Of a stretch of DNA of 64,000 bases, positions 60,334 to 61,887 are shown piece after piece. Made by a program: the position numbers and the translations under genes. The stretch lies in NCBI RefSeq assembly GCF_024498195.1, contig NZ_CP101824.1, positions 3,720,001 to 3,784,000 on the forward strand. Reading direction: 5' to 3'. The notes under the pieces were generated by a model that saw only the letters and a list, made by a program, of their open reading frames with translations, ran no database searches and was not told where the DNA came from. Source of the stretch: Halovivax cerinus. GTDB taxonomy: Archaea > Halobacteriota > Halobacteria > Halobacteriales > Natrialbaceae. The number at the start of each line of letters is the position of its first letter. The first letter of the stretch is position 1.

Positions 60334-61320
60334 ATGAAAGCGACGGCAATGGCGCATCCCATCCAGGGACTCGTCAAGTATCACGGGCTCCGAGACGACC
60401 TGGAGCGCTATCCCTACCACGACAGCATCAGCGTCTGTACCGCGCCGAGCCACACGCGCACGACCGTCGAGTTCTCGATGGACTACGACGACGACACCTA
60501 CGTCGTCGACGGCGAGGAACTCGAAGGCGCCGGCTTCGACCGTCTCGAACGAGTAGTCGAGAAGGCCCGCGGCATGTCCGACGCCGCCCACACGGTCTAT
60601 CCCTGTCGGATCGAGTCCGAGAACAGCTTTCCCTCGAACGTCGGCCTCGGCTCCTCGTCCTCGGGCTTCGCCGCCGCCGCGATGGCGCTCGCCGAGGCGG
60701 CCGAACTCGACGCCTCCCGCGCCGAAATTTCGACCATCGCCCGCGTCGGCTCCTCCTCGGCCGCCCGCTCGGTCACCGGCGCCTTCTCCATCCTCACACA
60801 GGGACTCACCGACGAGGACTGCTACGCTCGCCGGCTCCAGACCTCCTTGCACGAGGACCTTCGCACCGTCGTCGCACTCGTCCCGTACCACAAGGACACC
60901 GACGACGCCCACAAAGAGGCAGCCGACAGTCACATGTTCGACGCGCGCCGCGCCCACGTCCAGGACCAGCTCGCCGAGATGAAGGCCGCCCTCCGCGAGG
61001 ACGACTTCGAGCGCACGTTCGAACTCGCCGAGAAGGACTCGCTTAGCCTCGCCGCCACCACCATGACCGGTCCCGAGGGCTGGGTCTACTGGCAACCCGC
61101 CACCCTCGCCGTCTTCAACAAAGTCCGCGAACTCCGCACCGAGGAGGACATCCCCGTCTACTTCTCGACCGACACCGGCGCGAGTGTCTACGTCAACACC
61201 ACCGAGGAACACGTCGATCGCGTCGAAGAGGCCGTCTCAGACACCGGCGTCTCGACGACCACCTGGAGCGTCGGCGGCCCCGCCACGCTCTTAGAAGACG
61301 AAGACGACCACCTGTTCTAG
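60334..61320 (+). CDS. mvaD: Phosphomevalonate decarboxylase (haloarchaeal mevalonate pathway)
   Basis: GHMP-superfamily decarboxylase, 328 residues. Its start, MKATAMAHPIQGLVKYHGLR, and the segment ENSFPSNVGLGSSSSGFAAAA are those of the haloarchaeal phosphomevalonate decarboxylase, which makes isopentenyl phosphate from mevalonate 5-phosphate, the step before isopentenyl phosphate kinase. GSSSAARSVTGAF and the C-terminal YFSTDTGASVYVNT are also present. ATG 60334 follows a CTTTATG box by about 30 bases. Upstream of the prenyl synthase step encoded nearby. Confidence 0.9.
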   Translation: MKATAMAHPIQGLVKYHGLRDDLERYPYHDSISVCTAPSHTRTTVEFSMDYDDDTYVVDGEELEGAGFDRLERVVEKARGMSDAAHTVYPCRIESENSFPSNVGLGSSSSGFAAAAMALAEAAELDASRAEISTIARVGSSSAARSVTGAFSILTQGLTDEDCYARRLQTSLHEDLRTVVALVPYHKDTDDAHKEAADSHMFDARRAHVQDQLAEMKAALREDDFERTFELAEKDSLSLAATTMTGPEGWVYWQPATLAVFNKVRELRTEEDIPVYFSTDTGASVYVNTTEEHVDRVEEAVSDTGVSTTTWSVGGPATLLEDEDDHLF

Positions 61321-61343
61321 AACCGAACTTTTGCGCTGTCGTT

Positions 61344-61693
61344 CGAGAGAGCGAAGCTCTCTCGTGACTGAGCGAATCGGAGATTCGCGAGGTCCGCGAG
61401 ACCTTCGGTCTCGCTTGATGACGAAAGGCGCGAAGCGCCTTTCGAACCACGGGCCGACTGCGTCGGCCCTCGGCAAAATCTTCAAAAGAGCGCGAGCGCT
61501 CTTTTGGACATCGTGAGATCTTCGATCCCGCTCAGCTTCGATGAAAAGAACTCCTCCCTCCCCGCCAGCCGCGCTTCGCGCGGCTTCTCGGTCGGTCGTC
61601 GGCCCGCTCGCTCCCTTCAGTCGCTCGCGGTACAATTCCAATTGACACCAGCCGTTCCCCGTTGGCGCGCGGATCGCTCCGCGACCGCGCGCC
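61344..61693. repeat. Array of short perfect hairpins
   Basis: At least eight inverted repeats with perfect stems: 61344-61364 (9 bp, loop GAA), 61372-61388 (7 bp, GGA), 61396-61414 (8 bp, TTC), 61422-61444 (10 bp, GAA), 61451-61469 (8 bp, TGC), 61484-61505 (10 bp), 61567-61585 (8 bp, TTC) and 61664-61693 (13 bp with one bulged base, loop TCC). Minor ones lie at 61517-61527 and 61705-61715. Most loops are three bases and four of the eight are GAA/TTC. The whole 61321-61887 gap holds no supported gene. Confidence 0.85.
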
Positions 61694-61887
61694 AGGCCAC
61701 CGCCTCCGGAACGGAAGCACCGATGGCCGTTCGTGAATCCTGTCGTGATTCCATCCCTCGAGTGATGTCCGTCGGTTGGGCTCCCCGGCAGCCGCCTCCG
61801 TCGAACCAATCAGCCCGTTGTCGGTATCGGCAGCCATAAGATCCAGTACCACGAACGATGATTCACAGAACGTCCCCGCTAATACCA

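Follow-up and report, generated by a model that had tools for sequence, protein, structure and literature searches.

The dense array of hairpins at positions 61344-61693 of the window (the whole stretch of Halovivax cerinus DNA analysed here, 64,000 nucleotides long) represents a single copy of a mosaic hairpin element that is non-coding and dispersed within the haloarchaeal order. In this element, a frame of fixed linkers bears three to four hairpin arms, and optional twin-hairpin cassettes (A, B/C and D) are inserted, either way round, within these arms or within one another. The element constitutes a copied family and not a set of unrelated hairpins, nor is it a product of chance. For the complete reading, in which a mosaic element placed behind genes has its stems maintained at the DNA level and acts as a 3'-end element, we consider the chances to be about even.

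Hairpins and layout of the copy behind mvaD

The preliminary description of this DNA had reported eight or more perfect inverted repeats, with stems of 7-13 bp, in a dense array. Our measurements bear out the density and the number. Perfect hairpins are located at 61344-61364 (9 bp stem, GAA loop), 61372-61388 (7 bp, GGA), 61396-61414 (8 bp, TTC), 61422-61444 (10 bp, GAA), 61451-61469 (8 bp, TGC), 61483-61506 (10 bp, with a four-base loop, CGAG) and 61567-61585 (8 bp, TTC); the eighth, with its arms at 61663-61672 and 61685-61694, is longer and imperfect, and the longest perfect stem measures 10 bp, not 13 bp. The proposed check against shuffled DNA was carried out with 2000 dinucleotide shuffles: perfect stems of at least 7 bp with a three-base loop number 6, against 0.07 expected and a maximum of 2 in any shuffle, and those of at least 8 bp number 5, against 0.02 expected in the same shuffles, which rules out a chance origin of the array. 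The fold z-score is -5.65 for the array as RNA and -5.85 for its other strand as DNA. Loops of GAA and TTC, previously described as preferred, are indeed present, but the true preference is for GNA or TNC, found in six of the six triloops here.

The complete copy extends over 61325-61698; its own genome has about a dozen, of which this is the most elaborate, and it owes its dense look to the presence of the optional twin-hairpin units A, B and C. Its TTTT lies 8-11 nt past the mvaD stop codon, and the same head is found in other copies. The parts are the following:

61318-61320 (+): stop codon TAG of mvaD (diphosphomevalonate decarboxylase), the gene preceding the element
61325-61338 (+): head GAACTTTTGCGCTG, made of the T-tract and the 5' strand of arm 1, recognised by covariation
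61537-61539 (+): TTC, pairing in arm 1 with GAA of the head, recognised by covariation
61473-61478 (+): GCAAAA, pairing in arm 1 with TTTTGC of the head, recognised by covariation; a nearly invariant C-C mismatch separates the two pairings
61339-61450 (+): cassette A, composed of TCGTT, the hairpin 61344-61364, TGA..TGA, the hairpin 61422-61444 and AACCAC; split here by cassette C
61368-61418 (+): cassette C, 51 nt, composed of CTGA, the hairpin 61372-61388, GAGGTCC, the hairpin 61396-61414 and TTGA; absent from the ilvE copy
61451-61469 (+): slot-1 hairpin of arm 1, GGGCCGAC tgc GTCGGCCC; its stem is different in the sister species
61470-61478 (+): TCG and the return strand GCAAAA, closing arm 1
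61479-61535 (+): cassette B, composed of TCTT, the hairpin 61483-61506, GACATC, a decayed hairpin at 61513-61531 and TCAG
61536-61566 (+): core linker CTTCGATGAAAAGAACTCCTCCCTCC..., the best conserved part of the element
61567-61585 (+): slot-2 hairpin of arm 2, AGCCGCGC ttc GCGCGGCT
61590-61604 (+): conserved linker GGTCGGTCGTCGGCC, closing arm 2
61602-61632 (+): arm 3, GCCCGCTCGCTCCCTTCAGTCGCTCGCGGTA, which reads as an imperfect hairpin with TC/TC mismatches
61649-61698 (+): tail CAGCCGTTCCCC and arm 4 (TTGGCGCGCGG...CCGCGCGCCA, then GGCC); gyrB copies have no comparable arm

A dispersed family behind genes and its cassettes

When the organism's own genome was searched with the array region, mosaic matches appeared at many loci. 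All copies have in common the fixed linkers GAACTTTT..C.CTGC, TCGGCAAAACTTCGATGAAAAGCACTCCTCC and GTCGTCGGCCCGCTC, and their frame runs in the order GAACTTTT..C.CTGC, hairpin, TCGG.AAAACTTCGATGAAAAGCACTCCTCC, hairpin, GTCGTCGGCCCGCTCGC, hairpin and, often, a fourth arm; in the hairpin slots between linkers, the stem sequences vary from copy to copy. A covariance model built from 25 simple copies identified 12 strong copies in the own genome and, in the survey of related haloarchaea that had been proposed, detected the element in 145 of the order's 293 sampled genomes (E <= 1e-6). Eight genomes of other families carry 9-19 copies each, a range that is not an average because these genomes were picked among the positives. 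Named matches to the core pattern belong nearly all to Natrialbaceae genera. A viral origin was rejected, the exact core pattern being absent from 2.9 million viral contigs. Matches of the window to known RNA families in Rfam 15 are weak and far below the gathering scores, and Rfam scans of 17 copy-bearing loci returned only tRNAs, confined to one locus. No matching description was found in the open literature, mostly outside subscription journals, on haloarchaeal REP/BIME sequences, mobile repeats, structured RNAs or the core sequences themselves. A short core subfamily of about 98 nt, without the slot-2 hairpin, was observed on plasmids NZ_CP084319.1, NZ_CP031307.1 and NZ_CP119800.1 (L267, L268 and L270, near base 2501); it lies upstream of small ORFs in two of these three cases, and one such ORF is a ribbon-helix-helix gene adjoining a RelE/ParE toxin gene.

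The position of the element relative to genes is distinctive. Among 118 collected copies, 85 start 0-20 nt past a same-strand stop codon, against 2.3% of random positions in the same loci, and the spacing is mostly 1-5 nt; the other 33 do not begin right after a recognised ORF, and some lie upstream of an oppositely oriented gene. One copy begins 3 nt past a tRNA gene (L227). In eight genomes, seven of seven pairs of copies less than 600 nt apart are arranged tail to tail, which is the expectation at convergent gene ends. The host genes are usually core genes, including those of gyrB, the thermosome, PAN, uL16, IF-2, aIF-1A, TFS, mvaD, IlvE, the DNA polymerase D large subunit, PstB, EngB and a geranylgeranyl reductase; the same core genes bear the element in many genera, and several are hosts in other families too. 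One own-genome copy (L030 1449-1587, minus strand; G000:C1:2655675-2655813) is not behind a recognised ORF and seems to stand upstream of a gene of opposite orientation; an unannotated RNA gene might come before it, although none was detected by tRNA and Rfam scans. The organism's own DNA polymerase D large subunit contains a LAGLIDADG-like segment upstream of the catalytic domain, a probable intein (L136 1602-3095, minus strand; G000 near C1:951485).

Copies at a given gene are patchy and yet persistent. In the sister species G002, the element is absent behind both mvaD and gyrB. The gyrB-gyrA spacing is about 18-49 nt or less in many genera, and in other genera the intergenic stretch measures 166-319 nt with the element included. 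The gyrB copies beyond the window's genus share the slot-2 stem GCGCGG-CCGCGC and the arm 3 AGCGTCCGC-GCGGACGCT, and they differ from one another in slot-1 stems and cassettes. Over ten genes, the likeness of copies is 0.714 at the same gene and 0.664 between different genes; none of 1000 permutations, which ignore genome relatedness, reached this excess. It is carried chiefly by gyrB, EngB, mvaD and IF-2, the core linker being alike at all genes. Same-gene likeness and shared sequence together indicate that the copies are old at their genes, yet have sequence in common.

The additional hairpins of the mvaD copy come from cassettes. Cassette A follows the pattern TCGTT, hairpin, TGATGA, hairpin, AACCAC, and cassette B the pattern TCT, hairpin, GACCTC, hairpin, TTAG; cassette D is nested within B, and cassette C, inside A, is an inverted B by sequence. 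Of 125 genomes of the family, 90 contain cassette A, and the reversed control pattern gave no match; the matched units are about 51-64 nt long, occur in both orientations and are also found in other host sequences. Their sites lie in arms 1 or 3 of the core or within other palindromes, in some cases beside tnpB-like ends, and their terminal inverted repeats read TCGTTCG at one end and, on the opposite strand, TGGTTCG at the other. In L246 and L249 (around base 1500, minus strand), as well as in L241, L247 and L262, cassette A lies in stems adjoining CCACCGCtttaGCGGTGG, which resembles the right end of an IS1341/tnpB-type element. In this group of loci cassette A is also seen at the tip of palindromes of the CCTCGGGGTC...GACCCCGAGG type, and both settings recall SMR insertion into IS605-type elements. 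In L237 and L239 it is found within another dispersed repeat that has CAGCCAGAAAGCCCC and CCCCTTTCAGTCCCAC motifs.

These results change several earlier readings of the array. From the differing stems, the preliminary description had concluded that this was not a copied repeat; on the contrary, it is a copied, dispersed element, and the mvaD copy is identical over 135 nt to the ilvE copy of its own genome except for one loop base and the 51-nt insert. This identity is the plainest evidence of recent sharing between loci; the mvaD copies of sister species lack the cassettes of the window's copy. Shape is not the only shared property, as had been supposed, because linkers, order of parts and position behind a gene are conserved too. 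The suggestion that remnants of small palindromic insertions are involved is nearly right as regards the extra hairpins, these being optional twin-hairpin cassettes in which nested insertion is seen. Finally, a reading frame through the array had been judged unconvincing, and rightly: that the region encodes a small basic protein is a negligible prospect. Open frames do exist at 61291-61809 on the minus strand (172 aa) and at 61504-61839 on the plus strand (111 aa), but the tested frames have no Pfam match, the structure covaries, and no reading frame would survive the gain and loss of cassettes and the stem changes of varied length between copies.

Covariation and the upkeep of the stems

The pairings were evaluated in two alignments. 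In the larger one (101 distinct sequences), which was fitted to the covariance model and is therefore biased towards it, 96% of the cells are paired and 383 cells have paired changes, where shuffles give 106 and slid controls no more than 54. The smaller one (25 sequences) does not have this bias; it contains 87 paired-change cells against 27 in shuffles, and 11 of its 20 pairs are changed on both sides. In the larger alignment the signal vanishes once the pairs are shifted by a few columns. Covariation also links the head triplet to the internal triplet (GAA-TTC, AAC-GTT, GAC-GTC and AAA-TTT) across the nearly invariant C-C mismatch, and one pair of arm 2 is C-G in 48 sequences and U-A in 43. 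In arm 3, as read from its letters, the TC/TC tandem mismatches recur.

The kinds of mismatches and loops are informative about the level at which the stems are kept. Among 2610 cells, G-T mismatches number 26 and A-C mismatches 24, and stems with a single mismatch are 11 with a wobble against 8 with its opposite-strand equivalent; RNA-level selection through wobble was rejected because G-T and A-C are equally rare. GNA or TNC triloops occur in 139 of 198 cases, divided into 72 GNA and 67 TNC. As both loops and mismatches are strand-symmetric, they lend no support to selection on RNA. In one locus (L064), arm 1 is fully self-complementary, which was the case in none of the 74 other arm 1 sequences counted.

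It has been reported that DNA template switching between arms leads to arm homogenisation and loop inversion (PMC8604942, PMC8794818). In our proposal, hairpin-templated synthesis of this kind, together with exchange between copies, would keep the stems perfect at the DNA level. Such upkeep would account for paired changes without wobble intermediates and for loops drawn equally from either strand; the rarity of G-U and the strand-even loops fit DNA template switching better than they fit wobble-tolerant RNA selection. The self-complementary arm 1 of L064 is likewise an outcome of the kind that template switching yields. We infer that the stems are probably maintained by both processes. Exchange between copies can by itself produce nearly the same outcome as template switching, and a strand-blind structural constraint behind stems and loops is possible as well.

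A possible role at transcript ends and its rivals

Considering its sense orientation, its start near a stop codon or tRNA end, its T-tract head and the tail-to-tail pairs, we propose that the element may work as a 3'-end element. It probably shapes where and how upstream transcripts end and, given its location directly past stop codons, could plausibly affect transcript ends or the stability of the RNA. With a T-tract head placed right behind the stop codon or tRNA and stacked hairpins next to it, the element would terminate or insulate transcription as well as protect the upstream transcript, at convergent genes from both sides. T-stretches terminate transcription in Haloferax, and in Haloferax volcanii they take the form of a T-tract and then C close behind the gene, with hairpins near part of the mapped transcript ends (PMC7237163). 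The element likewise has a T-tract shortly behind the gene; it differs in having a conserved frame of several arms, 120-370 nt long and with covarying stems, which is not part of the description of those terminators. Several observations count against a simple terminator: the element stands between gyrB and gyrA, where a complete terminator would split close genes, so that an operon need not end at it, and the T-tract lies before the hairpins, not after them. For this last reason a bacterial-type terminator, in which a G+C-rich hairpin is directly followed by a T-run, was discarded; no T-run could be read after any arm. Against any 3'-end reading stand the patchy presence at a given gene and the 33 of 118 copies not behind a recognised ORF.

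It is rather unlikely, although to be taken seriously as the main rival, that the whole structure is a selfish mosaic without host function. In this view the core would be a palindrome-bearing mobile element of the PATE/MITE kind with a preference for the ends of genes, and the cassettes would be smaller mobile repeats inserting into its hairpins. What is seen of the cassettes agrees with this, as they are found in several host sequences, in both orientations and nested in palindromes, and the palindromes of Haloquadratum walsbyi PATEs, haloarchaeal elements themselves, are entered by short mobile SMR-A repeats that have terminal inverted repeats and make no target duplication (PMC3119063). 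Cassette A is similar in kind and has such repeats, but at about 51-64 nt it is shorter than SMR-A, of about 110 nt. The recent copying between the mvaD and ilvE loci, the patchy presence at mvaD and gyrB and the tight gyrB-gyrA junctions of many genera also agree with mobility. The core, however, stays at the same core genes across genera, where its copies are closer to one another than to those at other genes; its strict sense orientation and its start a few nucleotides past a stop codon or tRNA are unusual among known PATEs; and no target duplication, precise empty site or linked transposase was found for it. Palindromes are present in the core; those of PATEs are near-terminal and related to IS605-type ends, to which no link of the core could be established, and PATEs have neither terminal inverted repeats nor target duplication.

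Improbable in our judgement is that the element is a DNA site, whose hairpins or cruciforms, extruded behind transcribed genes, would take up supercoiling or serve as binding sites of gyrase or of a chromosome protein. GNA triloops are very stable in DNA, which together with the strand symmetry of loops and mismatches and the occurrence at 3' ends, also where two genes face each other, would suit such a site; a supercoil or gyrase role has been proposed for bacterial BIMEs. The frame, by contrast, is strand-specific and always in gene sense, and about a dozen own copies, or 9-19 elsewhere, are few for a general supercoil buffer. The BIME/REP class, including REPINs, resembles the element in being dispersed and extragenic, often behind genes or between cistrons, and in forming mosaics of palindromes and conserved linkers. 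REP palindromes, however, are conserved sequences of 20-40 bp present in more than about 100 copies per genome, whereas in the element the linkers are conserved, the stems vary, the copies number about 10-20, and both the order and the sense orientation relative to the gene are fixed. A function as parS, or otherwise in partition, tied to the ParB-like gene next to mvaD was rejected: this gene matches ParB_N weakly, unrelated genes at dozens of loci have the element behind them, and the homologous gene of G002 comes after mvaD without it. Integron attC sites are also found directly behind ORFs with a conserved structure; this likeness was set aside because the hosts here are core chromosomal genes.

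A more ambitious form of the 3'-end reading, which we advance tentatively, is that of an order-wide family for 3'-end control, with a fixed linker frame, stems that renew themselves by template switching, staying perfect as their sequence drifts, and twin-hairpin cassettes that insert into hairpins either way, so that 3'-end strength would be tunable. If true, this strength could be adjusted by gaining or losing hairpins. For each slot the family provides dozens of natural hairpins that can be aligned, from the same genes of many species and with almost no wobble intermediates, which makes the origin and upkeep of hairpins by template switching directly testable. It also carries a warning that strong covariation by itself is no proof of RNA function. 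Haloarchaea are a group in which the control of transcript ends is poorly understood, and the element would be a recurrent 3'-end feature of their core genes, among them those of gyrase, polymerase D, the thermosome, the proteasome ATPase and initiation factors, that Rfam has missed.
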